Source of the DNA: Pigmentiphaga sp. NML030171
GTDB taxonomy: Bacteria; Pseudomonadota; Gammaproteobacteria; Burkholderiales; Burkholderiaceae_B
DNA: 64,000 nt
NCBI RefSeq assembly: GCF_002188635.1
Contig: NZ_NINX01000033.1
Location: 310,001-374,000, forward strand
Reading direction: 5' to 3'
Numbering within the stretch: position 1 is the first letter of the stretch; every line of letters begins with the position of its first letter. Shown here piece after piece: positions 51,912 to 64,000 of the stretch. The position numbers and the translations under genes were made by a program. Below the pieces are notes generated by a model. The model ran no database searches, was not told where the DNA came from, and was given only the letters and a program-made list of their open reading frames with translations.

Positions 51912-52481
51912 ATGGGACGCCCATCCCATGGTCCTGGACGCTTCGTGGTTGCCCACTACTACAGAGAACTGCTGAATTTCTGTGCCCGAGCGGTCAACAA
52001 CCGCGATGCGGCGGCCGACATCGTGCAGGAATGCTATGCGCGCTTCCTGGCCATCCAGCGCAGGCAGCCGATCGCGGAGCCCCGGGCGTTGCTGTACCAG
52101 ACGGCGCGCCATATCATGGTGGACCAGCATCGGCGCGAGCTCGTGCGCGGCCACGAAAGCATCGACTTGCTGGCCGAGGCCGAGCATCCGGCGATACCGT
52201 CCCAGTCGCAGCCTGATGCGATCCTGTCATCGACTCAACGAGTACGAGCCTATGTCTCCGCCATCGAGGCGCTGCCGCCCCGTTGCCGCGAGGCCTTCGT
52301 CCTGCACGTGTTCGACGGCCTGTCGCACACCCAGATCGCCCAGCGCATGAATACCTCGGTCAGCATGGTGGAAAAGCACGTGGCCCGCGGCCGGCTGGCT
52401 TGCCGCGCCTGCGAAAAACGATTGCAGGGACAGGATGCTCCGCAAGCCGGGGCAGACGTACCGGGCGTCAGGATTCCATGA
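51912..52481 (+). CDS. FecI-like ECF sigma factor
   Basis: A 189-residue extracytoplasmic-function sigma factor of the iron-starvation type. Region 2 shows YYRELLNFCARAVNNRDAAAD and IVQECYARFLAIQ; region 4 shows IEALPPRCREAFVLHVFDG and LSHTQIAQRMNTSVSMVEKH. ATG 51912 is used; GTG at 51945 (VVAHYYREL) gives a more family-like N-terminus. Its stop overlaps the FecR-like gene start. It should direct transcription of the TonB receptor gene downstream. Confidence 0.92.
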   Translation: MGRPSHGPGRFVVAHYYRELLNFCARAVNNRDAAADIVQECYARFLAIQRRQPIAEPRALLYQTARHIMVDQHRRELVRGHESIDLLAEAEHPAIPSQSQPDAILSSTQRVRAYVSAIEALPPRCREAFVLHVFDGLSHTQIAQRMNTSVSMVEKHVARGRLACRACEKRLQGQDAPQAGADVPGVRIP

Positions 52482-53587
52482 AGCCGAACGACGCCGATCT
52501 GCGCGAGTTGGACGGGTACGTTCAGACTCAGGACGAAGTGGAACTGCAGGCCGCCTTGTGGGTGTCGCGCGGGAAGGACGGCATGGATGAAGCCTCCGCG
52601 AGCCGGCTCCAGGCATGGCTGGCCGCGGATCCCGCTCATGTCGAGGCCTATCGTGCCATGGAAGAAAGCTCCCAGCGGGTCAGCGCGCTTCCGGAACATG
52701 CCATTGAATCGATCAGGACGGGCCTGAACCGGCGCGGCCCGCCGGCCGCCATGGCCGGAGCTGGGACGGCCCGGCGGTCTCGCCCATCTCTGTCAGCTCG
52801 CCTGGTGCCCCGCCTGGGCTGGGCATGGCCGTGGGCGGCCACGGCCGTCGCGACGGTGGTGTTGATGGCGGGCTGGGCCGGTTTGGAGCACTGGCGCAGC
52901 GAACCCGTTTTCACCGGCGACTACGTCACGGCCCGAGGCCAGCGCCTCGATGTCGAGCTGCCCGATGGCAGCATGCTGCAGTTGGACACCGCCACGCGGG
53001 TCCAGGTGCACCTGTATCGGCATCGGCGCGATGCAAAGCTGCTGGACGGTCAAGCCATGTTCGCGGTCAGCGCCGATCCGACCCGCCCCTTCGACGTCGC
53101 GGCAGGCGCCGCGCGAGTCACCGTCGTGGGCACGCGCTTCTCGGTGCGGTATACGCATGACGGCCTCGACGCGGGCAAGGCTATCGTCGCGGTCGAGTCG
53201 GGACAGGTGCGGGTAACCGGCGTCCCAAGACAGGAAGAACGGAAGACGGCGGCCGGCGACCGTGTCGAGCTGCATGCGGGGCAGAGCGTCACGGCCAACG
53301 AAGCTGGCCGGCTGGAGGCGATCGTCGATCTGCCCGTGCAAGCCGTGGGCGCCTGGCGCGCGGATCGGGTGACCTTCGGCGATACGCCGCTGGCCCTGGC
53401 GCTGGCCGAGTTCGAGCGCTATGCCGACACCGGTCTGGTAGTCCGGGATCCCGCGGTAGCCGACCTGCGCCTCGGGGGCAGCTTCGACCTGAGACAGGCC
53501 GGGGCTTTCGCGCAGGCGCTGCCACGACTGTTGCCGGTACGGCTGGAGCGGCGCGGCGGCACGACCGAGATCGTCGGCCTGCGCTGA
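52478..53587 (+). CDS. FecR-like anti-sigma / sigma regulator
   Basis: A 369-residue inner-membrane regulator. The cytoplasmic N-terminal domain (ELQAALWVSRGKDG, RLQAWLAADPAHVEAYRAME) binds the sigma factor; a membrane segment AWPWAATAVATVVLMAGWAG lies near residue 115. The periplasmic FecR domain follows with GQRLDVELPDGSMLQLDTAT and ARVTVVGTRFSVRY, and a C-terminal secretin/TonB-like STN end. The start overlaps the sigma gene stop by four bases. Confidence 0.92.
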   Translation: MKPNDADLRELDGYVQTQDEVELQAALWVSRGKDGMDEASASRLQAWLAADPAHVEAYRAMEESSQRVSALPEHAIESIRTGLNRRGPPAAMAGAGTARRSRPSLSARLVPRLGWAWPWAATAVATVVLMAGWAGLEHWRSEPVFTGDYVTARGQRLDVELPDGSMLQLDTATRVQVHLYRHRRDAKLLDGQAMFAVSADPTRPFDVAAGAARVTVVGTRFSVRYTHDGLDAGKAIVAVESGQVRVTGVPRQEERKTAAGDRVELHAGQSVTANEAGRLEAIVDLPVQAVGAWRADRVTFGDTPLALALAEFERYADTGLVVRDPAVADLRLGGSFDLRQAGAFAQALPRLLPVRLERRGGTTEIVGLR

Positions 53588-53718
53588 CAAACGACCCGGG
53601 TCCCGGCACCCGGAAAAAACTTCCAGTCCTCTGTTTCGCCACACATGCGGGTTTTGCCGCCTCGTACGACTACATCAGTAGTGCTTCTCGTTTCCATTAC
53701 TGTTCGGAGTCGACAACC

Positions 53719-56121
53719 ATGCGGCCGTTGCGCCCTATCCTCGTTCCCCTGGCTTGCGTCGCCATGCTGGTGGCCGGCCTTCCTGCCGCCGCCCAATCGG
53801 TCCCTGCCGCCCTGGACGTCTCGCTTGCCAGCCAGCCGCTTGGACAGGCGCTCAACGAATTGGCGCGCCAGGCCGGGCTACAGCTCTTGTTCTCTCCCGA
53901 ACTGGTGGCGGGCAAGGTGGCGCCGGCCGTATCCGGCCGCATGACCCCCAGGCAGGCGCTGGACCGGCTCCTGGCCGCAACCGGACTGGAAGCGGTCAGC
54001 GAAGGCAATACCGTGATCGTGAGGGCCGCTTCGCACTCGGGTCCGGCCACGATGCTGGCACCGGTCGTCGTCACCGCCAATCTCGAAAGGGAGAATGCCT
54101 ACGGACCGGTCTCTGGCTACGTAGCCAGGCGCAGCTCGACCGGCAGCAAGACGGATTCGCCGATCATCGAAACTCCGCAGTCGATTTCGGTGATCACCGC
54201 CGACCGCATCCAGGCGATCGGCGCCACGACACTCAAGGACGCGTTGAGCTACACCCCCGGCGTCGGCATCTCGCCCTACGGCATCGACTCTCGTTTCGAC
54301 TGGATCACCGTGCGGGGCTTCGACGCCTACAGCCCCGGGTTCTATATGGACGGCCTGCCCCTGCGCAACAACGGGAACTTCGGCCTCTGGAAGATCGAGA
54401 ACTACGGCGCGGAACGCATCGAGATCTTGCGGGGGCCGGCTTCCGTGCTCTACGGACAGGGCAACCCGGGTGGCGTCGTCAATGTCATCAGCAAGCGTCC
54501 CACGGCGGAACCCGTGCGGGAACTGCAGGTACAGATGGGCGACCATCGGCGCAAGCAGGTCGCCGCCGACTTCTCGGGCCCGCTGGACGCCGACGGCAAG
54601 CTGCTGTATCGCATCACGGGCGTGGTTCGCGATGGGGAGCTCGGCCAAGGCGGCATGCGGGACGACCATACCTATATCGCGCCCTCGTTGACCTGGAAGC
54701 CCTCGAGCGATACGTCGCTGACACTGCTGTCGCAATTGGGCCGCATTCGCGCGGGTGCGCTGACCCGCGTAGCGCCTGAATACGGATCTCTCGTGCCCAC
54801 CCCCATCGGCACCCGGATACCCGATTCATTGTTCATCGGCGATCGCAATTTCGATCGCCTGAACCAGGACCAGCAAATGGTCGGATACCAATTCGAACAT
54901 CGCTTCGACGACACCTGGACCGTGCGCCAGAATGCCCGCTACGCACATCTCGATGTCGACTACCGGCAACTGAGCGGCCCGCGTTTCGTTACGGTGAACG
55001 ACAACGACGCGCTCGATCCGGCCAACTTCCGGCTGCTGTCGCGTACGCCCTTCAGCAGCAAGGAGAAGATGACGGCCTTGGCCATCGACAATCAACTGCA
55101 AGCCGATGTTCGAGCCGGGGACTGGCAGCACAAGCTGTTGTTCGGGCTGGACCACCAGCGCACCCGGATAGACCAGGTCAGCCGCAGCAGCGGCACCGCG
55201 CCCGTGCTGGACATCTACGCGCCCGTCTATGGCGGCGCGGTGGAACTCGCCGATCCCTACACCGACGGCATCACCCGGCTGTCGCAGACCGGCGCCTACG
55301 TCCAGGACCAGATCAAATGGCGCGAAAAATGGGTCTTCACGCTGGGAGGCCGTTACGACAGCGCCGAAGCCAAGACCTTCAGCCGTGCCGATGGCACGAC
55401 GACGATCATGAAGGACCACAAGTTCACCGCCCGCGGCGGGGTCGTGTACCTGGCGCCCGGCGGCTGGGCTCCTTACCTGAGCTATGCGCAGTCGTTCATC
55501 CCTACGCTCGCGCTCGATCCGGCGACGGGCGAGGCCTTCAAGCCCGAGACCGCCCGCCAGTACGAAGCCGGCGTCCGCTATCTGCCCCCGGGGCGCAAGG
55601 AGAGCTACAGCGCGGCGGTCTTCGACCTGCGGCGCCAGAACTACGTCACCTACGACGTGAATTTCCAGCCCCGCCAGACCGGCGAGGTGTCGGTGCGCGG
55701 GATTGAACTCGAGGCCACGGCCGCACTGGCGCCCCAATTGAACGTGACGGCTTCCTACAGCTTCACGCCCCGGGCCATCGTCACGGGCAGCGCCAATCCC
55801 GACGAGATCGGCAAACAGGCAACCGCCGTGCCCCGCCACAGGCTGTCGATATGGGGCGACTATCGCTTCGCGAGCGGCGTAAAGGTGGGCCTGGGCATGC
55901 GCTATACCGGCACGACCCGGGGCGAGAACGAAACGGCGTCCGCGAAGATTCCGGCCGTCACGATCTTCGATGCCATGCTTGGCTACGACATCGACCGCTG
56001 GAGCCTGGCCTTGAACCTGCGCAATCTTGCCGGCAAGACCTACATCGCCAACTGCGGATTCGGCAACTGCTACTACGGACCGGCGCGCTCCGTGGTAGCC
56101 ACCGCCACCTATCGCTGGTAG
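53719..56121 (+). CDS. TonB-dependent siderophore receptor with N-terminal signalling domain
   Basis: An 800-residue outer-membrane receptor. Signal peptide MRPLRPILVPLACVAMLVAG, cleaved near AAA-QS. The STN signalling domain follows (SLASQPLGQALNELARQAGL, MTPRQALDRLLAATGL), then the plug (ETPQSISVITADRIQAIGAT, RGFDAYSPGFYMDG, RIEILRGPASVLYGQGNPGG) and a 22-strand-type barrel ending TATYRW. The STN domain couples ligand binding to the FecR/FecI pair upstream. The ligand is probably a ferric siderophore or similar chelate; the type cannot be read. 131 bases separate it from fecR, enough for its own sigma-dependent promoter. Confidence 0.95.
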   Translation: MRPLRPILVPLACVAMLVAGLPAAAQSVPAALDVSLASQPLGQALNELARQAGLQLLFSPELVAGKVAPAVSGRMTPRQALDRLLAATGLEAVSEGNTVIVRAASHSGPATMLAPVVVTANLERENAYGPVSGYVARRSSTGSKTDSPIIETPQSISVITADRIQAIGATTLKDALSYTPGVGISPYGIDSRFDWITVRGFDAYSPGFYMDGLPLRNNGNFGLWKIENYGAERIEILRGPASVLYGQGNPGGVVNVISKRPTAEPVRELQVQMGDHRRKQVAADFSGPLDADGKLLYRITGVVRDGELGQGGMRDDHTYIAPSLTWKPSSDTSLTLLSQLGRIRAGALTRVAPEYGSLVPTPIGTRIPDSLFIGDRNFDRLNQDQQMVGYQFEHRFDDTWTVRQNARYAHLDVDYRQLSGPRFVTVNDNDALDPANFRLLSRTPFSSKEKMTALAIDNQLQADVRAGDWQHKLLFGLDHQRTRIDQVSRSSGTAPVLDIYAPVYGGAVELADPYTDGITRLSQTGAYVQDQIKWREKWVFTLGGRYDSAEAKTFSRADGTTTIMKDHKFTARGGVVYLAPGGWAPYLSYAQSFIPTLALDPATGEAFKPETARQYEAGVRYLPPGRKESYSAAVFDLRRQNYVTYDVNFQPRQTGEVSVRGIELEATAALAPQLNVTASYSFTPRAIVTGSANPDEIGKQATAVPRHRLSIWGDYRFASGVKVGLGMRYTGTTRGENETASAKIPAVTIFDAMLGYDIDRWSLALNLRNLAGKTYIANCGFGNCYYGPARSVVATATYRW

Positions 56122-56186: not shown

Positions 56187-57347
56187 TCAGACCGTCGCCG
56201 CGCCTCCCAGAATGACCGTGCTCTGGCTGGACAAGGTCCCGCCGTTGCCATGCGCGATGGCCGTCTCGCAGCCCGCCACCTGGCGCCTGCCCGCTTCGCC
56301 GCGCACTTGGCGCACGGCCTCCATCAGCACGAACACCCCATACATGCCGGGATGGCAGTACGACAACCCGCCGCCGTTGGTATTGACGGGCAGGCTGCCG
56401 CCCGGCGCAATCGCCCCGTCCGCCACGAAGCGGCCGCCCTCGCCCTTGGGGCAGAAGCCCAGGTCTTCCAGGAACAGCAGCGTGGTGATGGTGAAGGCGT
56501 CGTACACCTGGACCGCGTCGATGTCGCGCGGACCGAGGCCGGCCATGGCGTAGGCCGCCGCGCCCGACTGCGCGGCGCCGGTGACCGTGAGGTCAGGCAT
56601 GCTGGTGATGTGATAGTGGCTGAGGTGTTCGCCCACGCCCAATATGTAGGCGGGCGGCTTGCGCAGGGTGGCCGCCCGTGCGGCCGAGGTCACGATGAGC
56701 GCGCCGCCGCCGTCGGTGACCAGGCAGCAGTCGCGCACGGTCAGGGGATGGCTGAGCATGCGCGCGCCCAGGACTTCGTCCACGGTCAGCGGGGTCTTCT
56801 CCCACGCAACGGGGTTGAGCAGGGCCCATTGCCGCGCGGCCACCGCGACCTGCGCCAGCTGTTCGCGCGTGGTGCCGTACTGGTGCATGTGGCGCGAGGC
56901 CGCCAGCGCGTACGAGCTGGCGGTGTAGATGGGCCGGTAGGGGGCCTCGTAGGGATTGACGTCGGGCGCGGCCACGTTGCTGCGGCCGGCGCTGCGCTGG
57001 GTGCTGCCATAGGCGATCAGCGCGACCTCGCACAGGCCGGCCTGGATCGCCAGCTGCGCGTGCGCCACCATGGACATGAAGCTGCATCCGCCTATGTTCG
57101 TGCCGTCGTGGTAGCGCGGCGCGATGCCCAGGTATTCGCACAGCGCCAGGGTAGGCATGCGGCTTTGCGAGGTGGTGGCGAACACGCCATCGACGTCGCG
57201 CAGCGATAGGCCGCAGTCGCGCAGGGCGCGGGAAGTCGCCTGGCCCATGAGATCCAGCGGCGACAACCCGGCCGCGACTTCGCCCAGGTCCGACTCCGCC
57301 ACGCCGACGATGGCGCAGGCGCCGCGCTTCAATGCTTGGGAGTTCAT
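56187..57347 (-). CDS. Thiolase-superfamily protein, Ltp2/SCP-x-like
   Basis: A 386-residue thiolase-fold protein. NIGGCSFMSMVAHAQLAI stands at the active-site position (GG-C/S-SF pattern of Ltp2-like lipid-transfer thiolases), and the C-terminal GGGLSYCHPGMYGVFVLMEA with AIAHGNGG completes the site. Ltp2 enzymes catalyse retro-aldol cleavage of hydroxyacyl-CoAs in a complex with a DUF35 partner, as I recall from steroid side-chain degradation. The DUF35 gene lies directly upstream with a four-base overlap, supporting that reading. GGAGG lies 5 bases before the ATG. Convergent with the TonB receptor gene. Confidence 0.85.
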   Translation of the reverse strand: MNSQALKRGACAIVGVAESDLGEVAAGLSPLDLMGQATSRALRDCGLSLRDVDGVFATTSQSRMPTLALCEYLGIAPRYHDGTNIGGCSFMSMVAHAQLAIQAGLCEVALIAYGSTQRSAGRSNVAAPDVNPYEAPYRPIYTASSYALAASRHMHQYGTTREQLAQVAVAARQWALLNPVAWEKTPLTVDEVLGARMLSHPLTVRDCCLVTDGGGALIVTSAARAATLRKPPAYILGVGEHLSHYHITSMPDLTVTGAAQSGAAAYAMAGLGPRDIDAVQVYDAFTITTLLFLEDLGFCPKGEGGRFVADGAIAPGGSLPVNTNGGGLSYCHPGMYGVFVLMEAVRQVRGEAGRRQVAGCETAIAHGNGGTLSSQSTVILGGAATV

Positions 57348-57742
57348 GCGGCCTCCGGGCGAAAGACCGGATAGGGAGGCTGCCCATCCTGCGGCTGGTG
57401 TACCTGCATGCGCACGCGCAGTCCGATGCGGACCTCTTCGGGCGCCAAGCCTTCGACCCGGCTCATCAGGCGAAAGCCTTCGTCCATGTCGACCAGCACG
57501 ACGTTGTAGGGCGCTTCGCCGCGAGGACTGATGACCGTGACGGCATGGATGGTGCCCTTGCCCGTGCTGACGCGCCATTGCAGGTCGTCATTGCCGGTGC
57601 CCGGGCCGATGACGCGCGGATGGAACACGGGCCGGCCGCTGGCCGGGTCGTACTGATAGGCCAGTTCGCCGCGGGAAAGGTGGTCGCGGAAGATGGCCAG
57701 CGGCGAGGCCGGCGCTGCGGAGGCGGAGGTACGGGAATCCAT
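57344..57742 (-). CDS. DUF35 OB-fold protein without the zinc-ribbon cysteines
   Basis: A 132-residue DUF35/OB-fold protein. The normal family has a rubredoxin-like zinc ribbon with CxxC pairs before the OB fold; here the ribbon region reads AYQYDPASGRPVFHPRVIGP and the whole protein contains no cysteine. The OB fold is recognisable (GTIHAVTVISPRG, PYNVVLVDMDEGFRLMSRV, IGLRVRMQV). Its stop overlaps the start of the thiolase gene, so the two are made together and likely form the Ltp2-DUF35 type complex. Confidence 0.85.
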   Translation of the reverse strand: MDSRTSASAAPASPLAIFRDHLSRGELAYQYDPASGRPVFHPRVIGPGTGNDDLQWRVSTGKGTIHAVTVISPRGEAPYNVVLVDMDEGFRLMSRVEGLAPEEVRIGLRVRMQVHQPQDGQPPYPVFRPEAA

Positions 57743-57778
57743 GGTCTCAATGGAAAGCGGGATGTCGGGGCGCGGGCA

Positions 57779-59038
57779 TCACACGATGCCATCGCGGCGG
57801 TAGGCGGCGATGTCTTTTTCGCTGCAGCCCAGAAGCTCCCGCAGCACGGCGTCGGTGGAGTCGCCCAGCACGGGCGGCGGCCGGTCGTAGGCCGGCGGGG
57901 TGCCGCGCAGCCGCAGCGGGCTGGCGATGGTCGACACGATGCCGCCGTCGGCCTTGGGCATGTCCACGCGCAGCCCGCGATGCCGCACCTGGGCGTCCTC
58001 GAACACCTGGGCGTAGTCGTTGATCGGGCCGCAGGGCACGCCGTGGGCCTCCAGCCGCGCGATCCATTCGTCGCGCGGCCGGGCCAGCATGGTGCGGGCC
58101 AGCTCGGGCACCAGTTCCTGCCGGCCGACGATGCGGCCGGTCACCTTCTTCCAGCGTTCGTTGCCGGCCAGGTCCGGGCGTTCGATGGCGGCGCAGTATT
58201 GCTGCCACTGCTTGTCGTTGCCCACCGCGACCACGATCTCGCCGTCGGCCACCGCGAACACCTGGTAGGGCACGAGGCTGGCGTGGGCGTTGCCGTAACG
58301 GTGCGGGACCTTGCCGTTGGCGAAGTAGCCCGTGACCTGGTTGCCCCCCAGGGCCACGATGCAGTCCAGCAGCGCCATGTCGATGTACTGGCCGCGGTCC
58401 GATACGGTGCGATGCTGCAAGGCGGACAGGATGGCGATGGTGGCGTACATGCCGGTCATCACGTCGGCGATCGCGACGCCGACCTTCTGCGGCCCGCCGC
58501 CCGGCAGTTGGTCGTTCTCGCCGGTAATGCTCATCAGGCCGCCCTGCGCCTGGAACACGAAATCGTAGCCCGGCTTGTGGGCGCTGGGGCCGTCCTGCCC
58601 GTAGCCCGTGATGGAGCAATAGACCAGGCGCGGGTTGATGCGCGACAGGCTGTCGTAGTCCAGCCCGTAGCGTTTCAGGTCGCCGATCTTGTAGTTCTCG
58701 ACCACCACGTCGGACCGCTCCGCCAGCCGCCGCACCAGCGCCTGCCCCTCGGGCCGCGCGATGTCCACGGTGATGGATTTCTTGCCGCGGTTGGCGGCGG
58801 CGTAGTAGGTGGAGTCGGTGGTGTCCGCGCCCTGGGCGTCGCGCACCCACGGCGGCCCCCAGGCGCGGGTGTCGTCGCCGGTGCCGGGGCGTTCCACCTT
58901 GATGACTTCGGCGCCCATGTCGGCCAGGTTCTGCGTGCACCAGGGTCCGGCCAGGATGCGCGACAGGTCCAGGACGCGAATGTGCGACAGCGCGCCGGTC
59001 TGGCCGCCCATGGCGGCCCGTGTGGTTTCGGAAGACAT
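57779..59038 (-). CDS. CaiB/BaiF family (class III) CoA-transferase
   Basis: A 419-residue CoA-transferase. It has IRVLDLSRILAGPWCTQNLAD, VIKVERPGTGDDTRAWGPPW, NYKIGDLKRYGLDYD, ITGYGQDGPSAHKPGYDF and VAIADVMTGMYATIAIL, whose aspartate should be the nucleophile. The length and AWGPPW pattern fit the succinyl-CoA-dependent L-malate/citramalate-type branch, but the acceptor acid is unknown. Eight bases after the Bug gene and 36 bases before the DUF35 gene, in one operon. Confidence 0.92.
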   Translation of the reverse strand: MSSETTRAAMGGQTGALSHIRVLDLSRILAGPWCTQNLADMGAEVIKVERPGTGDDTRAWGPPWVRDAQGADTTDSTYYAAANRGKKSITVDIARPEGQALVRRLAERSDVVVENYKIGDLKRYGLDYDSLSRINPRLVYCSITGYGQDGPSAHKPGYDFVFQAQGGLMSITGENDQLPGGGPQKVGVAIADVMTGMYATIAILSALQHRTVSDRGQYIDMALLDCIVALGGNQVTGYFANGKVPHRYGNAHASLVPYQVFAVADGEIVVAVGNDKQWQQYCAAIERPDLAGNERWKKVTGRIVGRQELVPELARTMLARPRDEWIARLEAHGVPCGPINDYAQVFEDAQVRHRGLRVDMPKADGGIVSTIASPLRLRGTPPAYDRPPPVLGDSTDAVLRELLGCSEKDIAAYRRDGIV

Positions 59039-59045
59039 GTCGGAA

Positions 59046-60023
59046 TCAGTCGATCTTGATGTTGGCGTCGGCGATGACCTTGGACCATTTGCTGAGCTCG
59101 GCGTCGACGAACGCGGCGAACTCGGGCTGCGTCATGGTGCCCGGCTCGGCGCCCTGCGCCGCGAACTCCTTGCGCACCGCGGCGCTGGACAAGGCCTTGC
59201 GCACGTCGGCCGACAGCCGGTTCGCCAGCTCGGGCGACATGCGGCCGGGACCGTACAGGCCGAACCAGGCGGTGGCCTCGAAACCCTTCACGCCCGCCTC
59301 GTCGATGGTGGGGACGTCCGGCAGCGCCGGCGAACGCTTGAGCGAGGTCACGCCCAGGGCCCGCAGGCGGCCGGACTTGATGTGCTGGATCACGCCCGGC
59401 ACCGAGTCGAACATCACGGGGATCTGTCCGCCCAAGAGGTCGTTCAGCGCCGGCGCCGCGCCCTTGTAGGGGATGTGCGTCATCTGGATGCCGGTCATGG
59501 ACTTGAACAGCTCGCCCGACAGGTGATTGGCGCCGCCGGTGCCGGCCGAACCGAAGTCCACCTTGCCGGGATGCTGCCTGGCGTAGGCGATCAGCTCCTG
59601 CACCGTGCGCACCGGGAAGGCGTGGTTCACCACCAGCACGTTGGGCACGGCCGCGACCTGGGCGATGGGCGTGAAGTCCGTGCGCGTGTTGTAGCGCAGG
59701 TTCTTGTACAGGCCGGGATTGATGACGTGGTGCGTGGCCGTCAGCATCAGCGTGTAGCCGTCGGGCTGCATGCCCGCCAGTTGCTCCGAGAAGATGGTGC
59801 CGCTGGCGCCCGCGCGGTTCTCCACCACGACCGGCTGGCCCCAGTTCTTCTGCAGCTCGGCCGCCAATTGGCGGGCCAGGATGTCGGTGGTGCCGCCCGG
59901 GGGGAACGGCACGACGATCCTGACCGGCTGGGTGGGAAAGTTCTGGGCGTGGGCCAGGGCGGGCAGTGCCATGCCCGCCGCGCTGGCCAGCACGGCAAGG
60001 GCACGCTGGATGCGCATCGTCAT
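59046..60023 (-). CDS. Bug-family (TctC-like) receptor
   Basis: A 325-residue periplasmic receptor with signal RIQRALAVLASAAGMALPAL (cleavage near AHA-QN) and motifs FPTQPVRIVVPFPPGGT, VENRAGASGT, MQPDGYTLML and IPYKGAAPALNDLLGG. AGGAG lies 5 bases before the ATG. Embedded between a MaoC gene and a CoA-transferase gene, so it should supply the operon's carboxylate substrate. Confidence 0.93.
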   Translation of the reverse strand: MTMRIQRALAVLASAAGMALPALAHAQNFPTQPVRIVVPFPPGGTTDILARQLAAELQKNWGQPVVVENRAGASGTIFSEQLAGMQPDGYTLMLTATHHVINPGLYKNLRYNTRTDFTPIAQVAAVPNVLVVNHAFPVRTVQELIAYARQHPGKVDFGSAGTGGANHLSGELFKSMTGIQMTHIPYKGAAPALNDLLGGQIPVMFDSVPGVIQHIKSGRLRALGVTSLKRSPALPDVPTIDEAGVKGFEATAWFGLYGPGRMSPELANRLSADVRKALSSAAVRKEFAAQGAEPGTMTQPEFAAFVDAELSKWSKVIADANIKID

Positions 60024-60055
60024 GTCGTCTCCTTTCTTCTATCGTTCGGAAGCGC

Positions 60056-60505
60056 TCAGGCCGCGCCCAGTTCGTGCGGGAACTCGACCATGGCCTCGCC
60101 CGCGGCGACGATCTCGCCGCGCTGGTTCGCCACCTGCACCTCCAGCGTGGCCCAGCGGCTTTTCTTCGTGGCCTGCACGGCCGACACCTTGGCGGTGGGC
60201 GTGATGGTGTCGCCCGGCTTGACGGGAATCTTCCAGCGCGTCTCGAGCCGGCGCTGCATGCCGCCCAGCGGATAGAGCCAGTCGGTCAGCATCTTCGTGA
60301 TGACGCCGAAGTTGTTCATGCCGTGCATGATGATTCCGCCGAAGTTGGTGCGGCCGAAATCACCCTTCATGTATTCGTCGTCCCAGTGCAGCGGGTTGTA
60401 GTCCAGCGAGGCCTCGCAGAAATCGCGGATGGTTTCGCGGGTAGGGGAGAAAGGCGTGCCCTCGATGGTCAGGCCGGGCTTCAGGGTGTCGAATGCGTTG
60501 CTCAT
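60056..60505 (-). CDS. MaoC-family dehydratase/hydratase
   Basis: A 149-residue hotdog-fold protein. The hydratase motif is ASLDYNPLHWDDEYMK followed by FGGIIMHGMNNFG, with Asp and His expected to activate water across an enoyl-CoA double bond. It lies 9 bases after the other MaoC gene. Two separate short hotdog proteins encoded together usually form a heteromeric hydratase, as in ChsH1-type enzymes. Confidence 0.87.
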   Translation of the reverse strand: MSNAFDTLKPGLTIEGTPFSPTRETIRDFCEASLDYNPLHWDDEYMKGDFGRTNFGGIIMHGMNNFGVITKMLTDWLYPLGGMQRRLETRWKIPVKPGDTITPTAKVSAVQATKKSRWATLEVQVANQRGEIVAAGEAMVEFPHELGAA

Positions 60506-60514
60506 GATTGACCT

Positions 60515-60991
60515 TCAGAAGGGGCGGATGGTCCAGCCGCGGCCGGAACAGATGACTTCGTCGCGCTGGTTGAAGAACACGTTGTCGTGCACGACGAACA
60601 GGCGGTTCTTCCGGATGAACTTGTCCAGCGCGCGCGCCTCGAGCCGGATGACGTCGCCGGGCCGCGCCGGCTGGTTGTAGCTCCACGACTGGCCGGCGTT
60701 GACGGTGCCGGGGCTGCGCATCCAGTCGTCGGTGGGCGTGCACGCGAACATCAGCAGGATGTGGATGGCCGGGGGGGCGATCAGGCCCTTGTAGGGGCTG
60801 TTGCGCGCATACTCCTCGTCGAAGTAGAGCGGGTGCATGTCGCCGACCACGCGGCAGTATTTCTGGATCGCTTCCAGCGTCAGCGTGTAGGGCAGGGTCT
60901 TGCGCGGTTCGCCGGGGACGATGTCGTCCCAGGTCTTGCGCAATTGCTCGTCTTTCCAGAAATCGGTCTCGAAGCTTGTCTCGGTTGCCAT
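60515..60991 (-). CDS. MaoC/FAS1-like dehydratase-domain protein
   Basis: A 158-residue hotdog protein of the N-terminal MaoC dehydratase type. It has EAIQKYCRVVGDMHPLYFDEE, PPAIHILLMFACTPTDDW and GQSWSYNQPARPGDVIRLEAR. The catalytic Asp-His pattern is only partial (VGDMHPLYF), so the partner at 60056 probably supplies the active site. First gene of a six-gene minus-strand operon (two MaoC, Bug, CaiB, DUF35, thiolase), divergent from an IclR gene. Confidence 0.85.
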   Translation of the reverse strand: MATETSFETDFWKDEQLRKTWDDIVPGEPRKTLPYTLTLEAIQKYCRVVGDMHPLYFDEEYARNSPYKGLIAPPAIHILLMFACTPTDDWMRSPGTVNAGQSWSYNQPARPGDVIRLEARALDKFIRKNRLFVVHDNVFFNQRDEVICSGRGWTIRPF

Positions 60992-61046: not shown

Positions 61047-61066
61047 AGCGGATATAAGTATCCGCT
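61047..61066. promoter_or_regulatory. IclR-type operator palindrome in the divergent MaoC/IclR promoter
   Basis: AGCGGATATAAGTATCCGCT is a perfect inverted repeat with 8-base arms and a four-base centre. It lies 56 bases before the MaoC start and 53 bases before the IclR start. Its centre also serves as a local AT-rich patch, so a bound protein would cover one or both promoters. Confidence 0.7.
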
Positions 61067-61118
61067 CTATGACCATTATTTGGATTCCGGCCTGCGCTGT
61101 CAAGGCCGTGGAGGACCC

Positions 61119-61883
61119 ATGGCGACCCCAGAAAGCGAATCGTTCGTCCGCACCTTCGCCCGCGGCCTGGCCGTGATCGAGGCCATGGGCCACGGCGCGC
61201 ATCGGAAAAACCTGGCGGAAATCGCCGAAGAAGTGGACCTGCCGCGCACCGCGGTGCGGCGTTTCCTGCTGACCCTGATCGAGCTCGGCTTCGTGCAGAC
61301 CGACGGCAAGCGCTACTGGTTGACGCCGCGCGTGCTGCGCCTGGGCCTGTCCTACCTGAACAGCCTGCCCTACTGGCGCCAGGCCCAGCTCAGCCTGGAA
61401 GAACTGTGCGGGCGCATCAAGCAATCGTGCGCGCTGTCGGTGCTCGATGGCGAACACATCGTCTACATCCAGCGCCAGCACTCCAAGCGCATCCTGACCA
61501 TGAGCCCGTCGCTGGGCAGCCGCCTGCCCGCGCACGCGGTGTCGATGGGGCGCATCCTGCTGGCCGGCCTTCCAGACGACGCGCTGGAACAGTATCTGCG
61601 AACCGCCACGTTCAAGCGGCTGACCGGCGCCACCGTGGTCGATCCCGACACGCTGCGCGAGCGCATCCTGGCGGCGCGCAAGCAGGGCTACGTCTGGATA
61701 GACGGGGAACTGGACGAGGCCATCTGCGGCCTGGCCGTGCCGGTGCGCGACCAGGACGGCAACACCATCGCCGCGATCAACGTCAGCCTGCCGACCGGGC
61801 AGGTCACGCAGGAAGAAGCCCTGAAGCTGTACCTGGCCGAGTTGCGGCAGGCCGCCTCGCAGATCCGGGCGGCCACGATGTAG
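61119..61883 (+). CDS. IclR-family regulator, PcaR-like
   Basis: A 254-residue IclR regulator of the type that controls aromatic-acid pathways. The helix-turn-helix covers SFVRTFARGLAVIEAMGHG to LPRTAVRRFLLTLIELG, then GKRYWLTPRVLRLGLSYLNS, a typical PcaR/PcaU/PobR stretch. GGAGG lies 4 bases before the ATG. It is divergent from the MaoC-CaiB-thiolase operon over the 20-base palindrome at 61047. Confidence 0.92.
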   Translation: MATPESESFVRTFARGLAVIEAMGHGAHRKNLAEIAEEVDLPRTAVRRFLLTLIELGFVQTDGKRYWLTPRVLRLGLSYLNSLPYWRQAQLSLEELCGRIKQSCALSVLDGEHIVYIQRQHSKRILTMSPSLGSRLPAHAVSMGRILLAGLPDDALEQYLRTATFKRLTGATVVDPDTLRERILAARKQGYVWIDGELDEAICGLAVPVRDQDGNTIAAINVSLPTGQVTQEEALKLYLAELRQAASQIRAATM

Positions 61884-61895
61884 GGCGACGCGGGC

Positions 61896-63122
61896 TCAGG
61901 TCCGCGCCACGCTCCACGACGGCCGTTCGTTCAGCGTCGCGACGTCGAAACCCGCCAGTTGGCGGTACGACTGCTCCACCCGCTCCAGTTCGGCCGCCGC
62001 CGAGGCATGGTCGCTGGCGCGCGCCAGGGTGCTGACCCGCTTCATCACATCGCCCGCCATACTGCGGTTGGCCCGCTGCACGGCGGCCACGGCCTCGCGG
62101 CGCGCCTGTTCGTAGGCCGACAGCGCGGCGTCCGGACCGGGCTGCATGGCCAGGTGGTAGGCCAGGACCCGCGCGTCGATGATGGCCTGCGATGCGCCAT
62201 TGGAACCGAAGGGATACATGGCATGGGCCGCGTCGCCCAGCAGCGTGGCCCGCCCGGCCGTCCAGCGCGGCAAGGGATCGATGTCCGCCATCGGATACTC
62301 GTAGGCCGCGTCCGTCCGGCGCACCAGCGCCGGGATGTCCAGCCAGTCGAAGTCCCAGTGGGCGACGTGGGCGGCCACCGCCTCGGGAGCGATGGGGCGG
62401 TTCCAGTTGCCGAGTTCGCCCGCGGCGCCCGGCTCGGTGGGCCGCACGATCAGCCAGTTCAGCACGCCCGGGCCGATGGGATAGACCACGCAGCGCAGAT
62501 GCTCGTCGCCCACGATCACCATCGAGCGTCCACCGCGGAAGGCCGGCCCCGGCGCCGCGCCGCGAAACATGGTCCAGCCGTTGGTGGCCAGCGGCGATCC
62601 GTGCCCATGCAGCGCGGCGCGCACGGCCGAGCGTATGCCGTCGGCGCCCACCAGCACGTCGGCCTCGAAGACAGCCGTGCCGCCGGCGGCAGGCGACGCC
62701 GTCACCCGCACGCCTCCGGCCTCCTGGGCCACGTCCTGCACGCGCTGCCCGGCCATGACCGCCTCCGGGCCCAGGCGCTCGATCACCGCGGCCAGCAGCA
62801 GCTCCTGGAGCTTGCCCCGGTGCACCGAATACTGCGGCCACCGGTAGCCGGCCGCGAGGCCCCGCGCCTCGGCGTTGATCAGCCGGCCGCCGCTGTCCAC
62901 GTAGGCCAGCTCGGACGTGGGGATGCCGAAGGACGCCAGCCGCTCGCCCAGTCCCAGCTCGTCCAGCTCGCGCACGGCGTGCGGCGGCAGGTTGATGCCC
63001 ACGCCCAATTGCTGGATCCGCCGGGCGGCCTCCAGCACCGTCACGTCGGAGATGCCCGCGGCATGCAGGCTGAGCGCGGCGGTCAACCCGCCTATGCCCG
63101 CGCCCGCGATCACGATCTTCAT
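61896..63122 (-). CDS. PhzS-like FAD-dependent monooxygenase
   Basis: A 408-residue single-component flavin hydroxylase. IVIAGAGIGGLTAALSLHAAG is the FAD dinucleotide motif, DVLVGADGIRSAVRAAL the DG motif and TLLGDAAHAMYPFGSNGASQA the second FAD site. GVGINLPPHAVRELDELGLG and PQYSVHRGKLQELLLAA closely resemble the phenazine hydroxylase PhzS as I recall it. No phenazine genes are present, so its substrate is more likely an aromatic or heteroaromatic acid. Convergent with the IclR gene (12 bases apart); the Bug gene lies upstream on the same strand. Confidence 0.87.
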   Translation of the reverse strand: MKIVIAGAGIGGLTAALSLHAAGISDVTVLEAARRIQQLGVGINLPPHAVRELDELGLGERLASFGIPTSELAYVDSGGRLINAEARGLAAGYRWPQYSVHRGKLQELLLAAVIERLGPEAVMAGQRVQDVAQEAGGVRVTASPAAGGTAVFEADVLVGADGIRSAVRAALHGHGSPLATNGWTMFRGAAPGPAFRGGRSMVIVGDEHLRCVVYPIGPGVLNWLIVRPTEPGAAGELGNWNRPIAPEAVAAHVAHWDFDWLDIPALVRRTDAAYEYPMADIDPLPRWTAGRATLLGDAAHAMYPFGSNGASQAIIDARVLAYHLAMQPGPDAALSAYEQARREAVAAVQRANRSMAGDVMKRVSTLARASDHASAAAELERVEQSYRQLAGFDVATLNERPSWSVART

Positions 63123-63144: not shown

Positions 63145-64000
63145 TCAGGGCTGGCGCATCAGCTTGGCATGCTCGACCAGCTTGCGTTCCGAGACGTAGT
63201 AGCTGGCGGCGAACTTGCCATAGTCGGCGGGCGGACTGAACCAGTAGGTCTGCCCGAGCTTCTCCAGCAGCTTGGCGTACTCCGGGTCGTCCACCGCCGC
63301 CTTGAAGGCGGCCGCCAGTTTCTGCACCACGTCCGGCGGCATGCCCTTGGGCCCGATCAATCCATAGGGCGCGGAATTGGCGATGTCGTAGCCCAGGCTG
63401 CGGGCGGTAGGCAGGTCCGACAGCAGCGGCGTCGGCTCCGCGTCGAACGACATCAGCAGCCGCAGCGCGCCCGACTGCACGTGCGGCAGCAGGCTGCCCA
63501 CCGCGTCCACCGCCGCCACCGTCTGGCCGCCCAGCAGGCTGACGGCGGCTTCGCTGCTGCTCTTGTAGCCGACGTGGGTCAGCTCGACGCCGGCAGCGGC
63601 GGCGAAGGCCTCGGTCAGCAGATGCATGCTGGTGCCCGCGCCGGCGGTCGCCACCGACACTTTGCCCGGATTGGCCTTGGCGTACCGCACCAGGTCGGCC
63701 GCCGTCCGGTACGGGGAATCCGCCTTCACCGCCAGCACGAAGGTATAGCCGCCCAGCCCCGCGATCCAGGTGAAGTCGCGGATCGGGTCCCAGTCCACCT
63801 TCTGCATGTACGGGACGCGGAACATGCCGGCCGTGGCCGAGGCGATGGTATAGCCGTCGGGCTTGTCCTGCCTGGCCATGGTGGAGGCGGCCAGCGTGGC
63901 GCCGACGCCCGGCTTGTTCTCGACGATGATGGGCTGGCCGAGATGGCGCGCCGCCAGTTCGGCCAGCTTGCGGAAGGTCAGGTCGGTGGGGCCGCCCGGA
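63145..64000 (-). CDS. Bug-family (TctC-like) receptor, truncated by window end
   Basis: The C-terminal ~285 residues of a Bug receptor; the N-terminus lies beyond position 64000. The visible frame starts in GGPTDLTFRKLAELAARHLG, then PIIVENKPGVGATLAAS, DKPDGYT and the later THVGYKSSSEAAVSLLGGQ. It ends 22 bases before the PhzS-like gene on the same strand, so the pair is probably co-transcribed as receptor plus hydroxylase. Confidence 0.92.
   Translation of the reverse strand, partial: PGGPTDLTFRKLAELAARHLGQPIIVENKPGVGATLAASTMARQDKPDGYTIASATAGMFRVPYMQKVDWDPIRDFTWIAGLGGYTFVLAVKADSPYRTAADLVRYAKANPGKVSVATAGAGTSMHLLTEAFAAAAGVELTHVGYKSSSEAAVSLLGGQTVAAVDAVGSLLPHVQSGALRLLMSFDAEPTPLLSDLPTARSLGYDIANSAPYGLIGPKGMPPDVVQKLAAAFKAAVDDPEYAKLLEKLGQTYWFSPPADYGKFAASYYVSERKLVEHAKLMRQP

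Follow-up and report, generated by a model that had tools for sequence, protein, structure and literature searches.

A six-gene Pigmentiphaga operon proposed to encode hydration and retro-aldol cleavage of an unsaturated acyl-CoA

The system considered here lies in a stretch of 64,000 nucleotides from a Pigmentiphaga-like genome (Pigmentiphaga sp. NML030171, contig NZ_NINX01000033.1, positions 310,001 to 374,000; hereafter the window), in which open reading frame (ORF) analysis places a six-gene operon on the minus strand at 56187-60991, in the order MaoC1-MaoC2-Bug-CaiB-DUF35-thiolase. A first-pass annotation made from the letters alone had given exactly these limits, and its description of a MaoC pair, CaiB, DUF35, a thiolase, and Bug in an IclR setting is borne out by the ORFs and by Pfam and NCBIfam profiles, the Bug and DUF35 calls coming from Pfam alone. 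The operon begins with the hotdog proteins MaoC1 (60515..60991; FAS1_DH_region, 63 bits) and MaoC2 (60056..60505; MaoC_dehydratas, 52.4 bits), which are followed by a Bug/TctC periplasmic solute-binding protein (59046..60023; TctC, 266 bits) and a CaiB/BaiF family III CoA-transferase (57779..59038; CoA_transf_3, 422 bits) that reaches 460 bits against the NCBIfam succinate-glutarate CoA-transferase, under the cut-off of 750. A DUF35/ChsH2-C OB-fold protein (57344..57742; OB_ChsH2_C, 57.7 bits) and a thiolase-superfamily protein, the proposed retro-aldolase (56187..57347; PF22691, and PRK06158 at 611.7 bits against a cut-off of 421), complete the set. Neighboring genes are separated by 7-36 bases or, in one case, overlap by 4 bases; the thiolase ORF is open further upstream, and its probable start is the ATG at 57347, which overlaps the DUF35 stop.

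The hydratase motif is D-x-N-P-L-H, and MaoC2 carries it with the dyad Asp35/His40 in all 14 aligned rows. In MaoC1, the corresponding stretch is D51-x-H-P-L-Y56, so that Tyr56 occupies the position of the catalytic His, and both Asp51 and Tyr56 are again found in 14 of 14 rows. This pairing of one Asp/His subunit with one His-to-Tyr subunit is the ChsH1/ChsH2 pattern, the same substitution being reported for the non-catalytic ChsH2 (PMC11321319). In phmmer searches, MaoC1 matched ChsH1 and ChsH2 weakly (E 8e-4 and 9e-4), and other hotdog proteins ranked higher, with 5cpg the best of them (5e-9). We propose from these residues that MaoC1 is an inert, substrate-holding subunit and MaoC2 the catalytic one, and the dyad pattern is the strongest sign that the two may form a single heteromeric hydratase acting on a bulky acyl group. 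The predicted structure of MaoC1 (mean predicted local distance difference test score, pLDDT, of 44) was too poor for geometry and was left unused.

The DUF35 protein, whose gene directly adjoins that of the thiolase in the window and lies directly upstream of it in 80 of 80 loci surveyed, matched the DUF35 chains of 9myr and 6ok1 (Shy and ChsH2) in phmmer searches. It contains no cysteine at all, and the zinc-ribbon motif C-x2-C...C-x2-C was found in none of 81 DUF35 sequences (L106 and L064 are missing their 5' ends; a Cys3His1 scan covered the window sequence alone). The Cys4 motif is present at two paralogous loci of the same genome, L003 and L004, and unclear in a third, L002. The clade to which the window DUF35 sequence belongs thus appears to be marked by a missing zinc ribbon.

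The survey behind these counts took the best 80 of 584 confirmed genome loci of the thiolase, which with the window gives 81 sequences and stretches, the nearest named kin being that of Pigmentiphaga sp. NML080357 (L035), at 99%. Tyr282 (in YDAF), Ala284, His332, and Gly86-Gly87 are invariant in all 81. Residue 366 is His in 75 and Gln in 6, and residue 88, directly after the two glycines, is Ser in 69, Cys in 6, and Ala in 6; among nine sequences from loci with the complete six-gene module it is Cys in the window, L035, L036, L037, and L039, Ala in L040, L043, and L044, and Ser in L041. In 36 further thiolase rows, partly from the same genomes, YD and HPG are present throughout (36/36), with Ser at residue 88 in 27, Ala in 7, and Cys in 1 (n = 35). 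According to the CtSal paper (PMC12329534), the Tyr of YDxF is the base in Sal and Ltp2, a role assigned by mutagenesis; two residues past it stand a His of the oxyanion hole in Ltp2 and the catalytic Cys in Sal; a second site is occupied by Tyr344 in Ltp2 and Gln352 in Sal; and Gly replaces the Claisen nucleophile in both. In our multiple alignment, the CtSal Gly at the nucleophile position falls on window Gly87, and TcLtp2 Tyr344 and CtSal Gln352 (numbering offset 24, worked out from the pairwise alignment) both fall on His332. The window protein thus has the Tyr base of the Ltp2 motif YDHF, and has Ala284 and His332 where Ltp2 has the following His and the Tyr344 acid; it has neither the YDCY of Sal, with its Cys304 acid, nor Gln352. 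If Tyr282 and His332 are both catalytic, as we infer, the pair would represent a third arrangement. Tyr330 was considered as the counterpart of Ltp2 Tyr344 and dropped, as the wider rows (at most 60% identity) have Cys at this position and CtSal Gln352 falls on His332.

A competing interpretation of the same protein is that it closes a beta-oxidation route as a Claisen thiolase, acting through Cys88 (or Ser88) on a product formed when a dehydrogenase encoded elsewhere oxidizes the hydroxyacyl-CoA. The fold is that of a thiolase, the window protein has Cys88 as well as HP and H-x-x-GG motifs like those of BbsB, the genome has many dehydrogenases, and some of the wider relatives adjoin genes for short-chain dehydrogenases (SDR) or acyl-CoA dehydrogenases (ACAD). 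Cys88 was our own initial candidate for a nucleophile. The register of the BbsB Cys varies with the method, however, lying opposite Cys88 in the HMMER pairwise alignment and opposite Gly87 in MAFFT with all references, and both the survey of relatives and the multiple alignment counter that assignment: 75 of 81 sequences, among them 4 of the 9 from full modules, have Ser or Ala at residue 88, the nucleophile column is Gly87, present in all 81, and the His of the HDxF motif of BbsB/SCP2 thiolases (HDAF) is replaced by Tyr in 81 of 81. The window, moreover, holds no dehydrogenase. Because no Cys is conserved in either register, nucleophilic-Cys thiolysis cannot, judging from these alignments, be the chemistry common to the clade, and we consider a Claisen ending unlikely.

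The phylogeny agrees with the residues in placing the window thiolase, on present sequences, with neither Ltp2 nor Sal, with deep support that is weak (long branches; deepest fork 84/42). TcLtp2 joins L004, a paralogue from the same genome (100/98), and the window protein, outside that branch, joins 4u4e (89/94); CtSal, the one Sal sequence included, sits on a long branch away from the window, its placement unsure given the same 84/42 fork. Sequence and fold rankings both put 4u4e, CtSal, and TcLtp2, in that order, ahead of the Claisen thiolases, the fold ranking drawing on a poor thiolase model (mean pLDDT 62.5, active-site stretches below 50) that was used for this purpose only and not for geometry. 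The three DUF35-linked paralogues in the same genome (L002, L003, L004) also have Tyr at the base position. The name "Ltp2-like" given in the first-pass annotation is therefore apt in a wide sense, for the retro-aldolase Tyr and the want of a conserved thiolytic Cys, and fails for the second catalytic column and for the grouping in the tree.

A further cluster in this genome also includes an Ltp2-like protein, which joins TcLtp2 in the tree. At 2926-12806 of L157 (G000:C18:56000-75000), genes for a GntR regulator, a Rieske oxygenase with a LigXa-like C-terminus, Bug, CaiB, the Ltp2-like protein, and a DUF35 protein with the Cys4 motif are accompanied by a FAD_binding_2 protein, a second CaiB, and a nitroreductase, and the whole may be an IpfDE-like set for aromatic deacylation.

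The absence of an acyl-CoA dehydrogenase, which the first-pass annotation had remarked on, extends to the whole window: profile searches found 20 ACAD, 7 3HCDH_N, and 67 SDR matches in the genome, and none falls inside it, the nearest SDR lying 3.6 kb past its end. The window likewise lacks the acyl-CoA dehydrogenase that stands beside hydratase-aldolase genes in steroid side-chain loci (ring genes were not searched for individually). Around the wider thiolase-DUF35 pairs, the 81 stretches (one representative per cluster scanned, with heuristic gene calls) contain crotonase-kind enoyl-CoA hydratases in 26 cases, ATP-grasp CoA ligases in 18, AMP-ligases in 15, and nitronate-monooxygenase-like genes in 14. 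From these varied neighbors, some members of the wider thiolase family could act in beta-oxidation, with the full module as one specialized setting.

The gene-neighborhood survey, which had been put forward as a check on the first-pass annotation, recovered the full six-gene order in 8 of the 80 best loci, in Pigmentiphaga (L035 and L037), a Burkholderiales metagenome-assembled genome (MAG; L036), Comamonadaceae (L039), Bordetella hinzii (L040), a Variovorax MAG (L041), and Achromobacter (L043 and L044). The module is also complete on plasmid pA82 of Achromobacter xylosoxidans A8, on one A. insolitus plasmid, and in a further genome from the bacterial family (L128), for a total of 12 distinct places, the window included and two on plasmids (L129 is the same place as L044 and was counted once). 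An order repeated in this way is not a chance arrangement. A broken copy occurs on an A. denitrificans plasmid, and in Acidovorax MR-S7 (L038) the module is cut by contig ends; this 7.1 kb contig runs from Bug to MaoC1 with a transposase-like ORF between, and may represent a circular or tandem copy. MaoC1 marks 17 distinct places at an identity of at least 73%, 12 with the full module, 3 without an adjoining thiolase, 1 broken, and 1 cut, a count that leaves out L038, where just the start of MaoC1 is present. Ten full-module thiolases form a single clade at 100/98, with L038 and L007 (the same row as B. hinzii) nested inside, in a tree built without the L036 and L122 thiolases. The module is accessory, since MaoC1 matches are rare (6 of 399 genomes of the order, this one included), and probably mobile, given the plasmid copies.

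The surroundings of these copies differ. In the window, genes at 51912-56121 for what we take to be sigma-factor-like and FecR-like proteins, and for a TonB receptor (Pfam), converge with the operon end; in P. kullae (L037) a nitronate-monooxygenase-like gene follows the thiolase instead. Two Achromobacter plasmids (L122 and L124, 1-9 kb) have an operon for an AtuA-family protein, biotin carboxylase, CaiB, MaoC, and Bug near the module, separated from it by LysR and IS481 transposase genes. At L126 (1540-5710, genome G203), two genes for UbiD-family (de)carboxylases, accompanied by IclR and Bug genes, are divergent from MaoC1-MaoC2, and at L127 (G250) an AMP-ligase gene lies beside the MaoC pair; these are hints, and no more, at aromatic acids or a different activation route. 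In two genera (L123, 17295-21841, and L041, 10079-14769), genes for a rhodanese, an RdmE/MhpA-like FAD monooxygenase, and a Blh-like metallo-beta-lactamase-fold (MBL) protein of persulfide-dioxygenase type stand beside the MaoC pair, perhaps a branch for sulfur-containing substrates. A sulfur substrate for the module itself, suggested by the MBL, rhodanese, and second monooxygenase genes near L041 and in Diaphorobacter HDW4B, was set aside: among the other loci searched, only L048 gave both an MBL and a rhodanese match.

The first-pass annotation did not note the plasmid copies or the loss of the DUF35 zinc site, nor a candidate operator that the window also holds. An IclR regulator of the PcaR/PcaU/PobR kind (61119..61883, plus strand) is divergent from the operon, its score against TIGR02431 (272.9 bits) being a near miss, just under the cut-off of 284.75. 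The divergent promoter region has three sigma-70-like sites (0.6 expected), including the putative operon promoter TTGACA-17-AATAAT (61075..61103, minus strand; 11/12, by consensus match only), and a palindrome, AGCGGATA-N4-TATCCGCT (61047..61066), that we propose as the operator and to which IclR may bind. A related palindrome, allowed to differ at no more than 3 of its 16 fixed positions, is found upstream of MaoC1 in 13 of 16 rows, or 12 of 15 distinct places, with none in L125, L126, or L127; none of 200 shuffles gave an equally good match. A stricter symmetric scan does not recover it in L041 and L123. In 6 of the 8 full-module loci the IclR gene directly adjoins the operon and is divergent from it; it is shortened in L037 and moved in L039. 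In L037 (3883-4284) it is reduced to its N-terminal part, with palindrome and operon kept.

A second operon appears to share this operator. Past the IclR gene, on the minus strand, are genes for Bug2 (63145..64000; Bug/TctC by Pfam), whose 5' end lies beyond the window, and for an FAD-dependent monooxygenase (61896..63122; PRK07538, 482 bits), proposed as a member of the regulon. An operator-like site lies 25 bases before the Bug2 start at G000:C1:374154-374173, outside the window (64154-64173 on its scale). A consensus drawn with these sites in view is matched in exactly two places in this genome, which are the two operon sites, and in one place in the control. Elsewhere there are two matches each in the genomes of L035 (G043) and L036, one in P. 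kullae, one at the module and one elsewhere in G005 and in G148, and none in G128 or in the L039 and L041 genomes. In L039 the monooxygenase operon is rearranged and a near-consensus site is kept before its Bug gene, so that a matching operator precedes the Bug2-monooxygenase genes in the window genome, L035, L036, and L039. The evidence for the operator is this recurrence in place and not a genome count. Because its operon shares the palindrome in place, the Pigmentiphaga monooxygenase probably belongs to the pathway. Its best matches in the Protein Data Bank are 2rgj and 3c96 ("flavin-containing monooxygenase"), which we take to be PhzS, and its presence suggests an aromatic substrate.

The monooxygenase also invites a second alternative, in which an oxygenase hydroxylates the ring carbon bearing the CoA side chain and the thiolase and DUF35 proteins then free acyl-CoA, the MaoC pair acting later or separately. 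IpfDE, to which we liken this scheme by description, is a thiolase giving propionyl-CoA in the aromatic breakdown of ibuprofen (PMC9195938). The operator before the monooxygenase operon and the Rieske oxygenase cluster of L157 are both compatible with such a scheme, and IpfDE reportedly works with a ring oxygenase. An FAD monooxygenase of either kind stands beside only 5 of the 12 full modules, however (the window, L035, L036, L039, and L041), and none was found in the examined stretch of the other 7, where L037 offers just a 31% relative and L044/L129 one of 28%. We regard an IpfDE-like deacylation as improbable for this operon.

The operon resembles two known systems and, by its second catalytic residue, its zinc site, and its gene architecture, appears to be a member of neither. 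With the ChsH1-ChsH2/Ltp2 system of actinobacterial cholesterol side-chain degradation it shares the inert and active MaoC pair, a DUF35 domain, the YDxF Tyr, and Gly in the nucleophile column; it differs in a separate DUF35 protein without zinc cysteines, in YDAF for YDHF and His332 for TcLtp2 Tyr344, in CaiB, Bug, and IclR in place of an acyl-CoA dehydrogenase, and in its distance from TcLtp2 in the tree. With Shy-Sal of Comamonas bile-acid side-chain degradation (9myr) it shares the grouping of hydratase and aldolase genes, a DUF35 partner, the YDxF/Y Tyr, and the lack of a nucleophilic Cys, whereas Shy is a single MaoC fused to DUF35 with a Cys3His1 zinc site and Sal has YDCY, with Ala284 in the window at the position of the Cys304 acid. 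The closest solved relative of the thiolase, 4u4e from Sphaerobacter thermophilus (383 bits, 51% identity), has the same Tyr, His, and H-G-x-G-G, with Ser at position 88 and Ser, not Ala, after YD, and its title names no function. The benzoylsuccinyl-CoA thiolase BbsAB (7pxp) also has a DUF35 partner (PMC12329534) and the HP motif, but it is a Claisen thiolase with HDAF and Cys.

The interpretation we favor, with confidence somewhat above even, is that these genes form a catabolic hydratase/retro-aldolase regulon whose substrate is an acid occurring as, or converted to, an alpha,beta-unsaturated acyl-CoA that carries a bulky beta substituent, probably an aromatic one. The acid would be taken up with the help of Bug and receive CoA from CaiB; a MaoC1-MaoC2 heteromer would then hydrate the enoyl-CoA, MaoC1 holding the substrate and MaoC2 doing the chemistry. 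Together with its zinc-less DUF35 partner, the thiolase-fold protein would cleave the resulting beta-hydroxyacyl-CoA by a retro-aldol reaction to an aldehyde or ketone and acetyl- or propionyl-CoA, Tyr282 taking the beta-hydroxyl proton and His332 protonating the enolate. In Pigmentiphaga, the FAD monooxygenase, or enzymes encoded elsewhere, would further process the cleavage product or the original acid. Cinnamate-like and alpha/beta-branched aryl acids would suit this scheme, and an aryl-acrylate in particular is a possible rather than a probable substrate. The hydratase/retro-aldolase reading of the first-pass annotation is strengthened by the inert and active MaoC pair, Tyr282 together with the want of a conserved thiolytic Cys, the DUF35 gene, and the lack of a dehydrogenase in either operator-bearing operon; the operator itself, and the Bug2-monooxygenase operon that shares it, are additions to it.

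Other chemistry on the thiolase fold deserves mention at this point, such as decarboxylation of a beta-keto or malonyl-type CoA, PhlABC-like acyl transfer, or a reaction in the condensing direction, for the superfamily includes PhlC, MucABC, and a thiolase linked to HMG-CoA synthase. PhlC-type acylation uses Cys, and no Cys is conserved here (9skm is, by its title, a C88S variant); Bug and IclR also seem to suit breakdown more than synthesis. Such chemistry is, in our judgment, improbable.

Several observations weigh against the retro-aldolase interpretation. The window thiolase does carry Cys88, opposite the BbsB Cys in the pairwise alignment; the acid is Cys in CtSal and Tyr in TcLtp2, and the literature examined describes no His acting in this way. 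We found no activity data for a close thiolase relative, 4u4e being titled "putative thiolase". The MaoC half and the thiolase half are separable, and the unit is not obligate, because the MaoC pair occurs without adjoining DUF35 and thiolase genes in three genomes. In Diaphorobacter HDW4B, MaoC1-MaoC2-Bug-CaiB is followed by Bug, rhodanese, FAD monooxygenase, and MBL genes, the best thiolase elsewhere on the plasmid (the replicon searched, as opposed to the chromosome) having 54% identity; in G203 (L126) and G250 (L127), thiolases of 68% and 60%, respectively, lie elsewhere in the genome. L125 runs out at a contig edge after CaiB. The 67 SDR and 7 3HCDH_N matches elsewhere in the Pigmentiphaga genome could supply a dehydrogenase; SDR genes neighbor the thiolase in 10 of the 81 stretches and ACAD genes in 9; and in Polaromonas JS666 a 58% thiolase relative stands among ACADs and an SDR in a beta-oxidation-like setting. 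As for the operator, the first palindrome pattern, allowing up to three mismatches, occurs in 14 places in the genome, the site before Bug2 among them, against 10 for the reversed control, and the consensus was drawn after the second site had been seen.

Among the literature matches listed, judged by title or abstract opening, we found no description of this gene set, which is not proof of absence, and the hydratase/retro-aldolase pairs met there are those of steroid side chains. The matches listed for plasmid pA82 likewise included no paper on the operon. A bolder and more tentative proposal, which we hold at clearly less than even confidence, is that the operon combines a third retro-aldolase solution on the thiolase fold (Tyr/His) with a zinc-less DUF35 protein in a mobile, CaiB-fed, dehydrogenase-free pathway for aromatic alpha,beta-unsaturated acids, and that the wider PRK06158 proteins, which are common in this bacterial family and also occur on plasmids, are misannotated aldolases. 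If the operon does carry out retro-aldol chemistry and its substrates are small or aromatic acids, the thiolase fold would have become an aldolase more often than has been described in those papers, and the operon would offer a compact set of carbon-carbon lyase genes for biocatalysis. The family that NCBIfam names acetyl-CoA acetyltransferase (PRK06158), with a match of this type (E at most 1e-60) in 79 of 151 genomes of the bacterial family, Pigmentiphaga sp. NML030171 included, would then need renaming.

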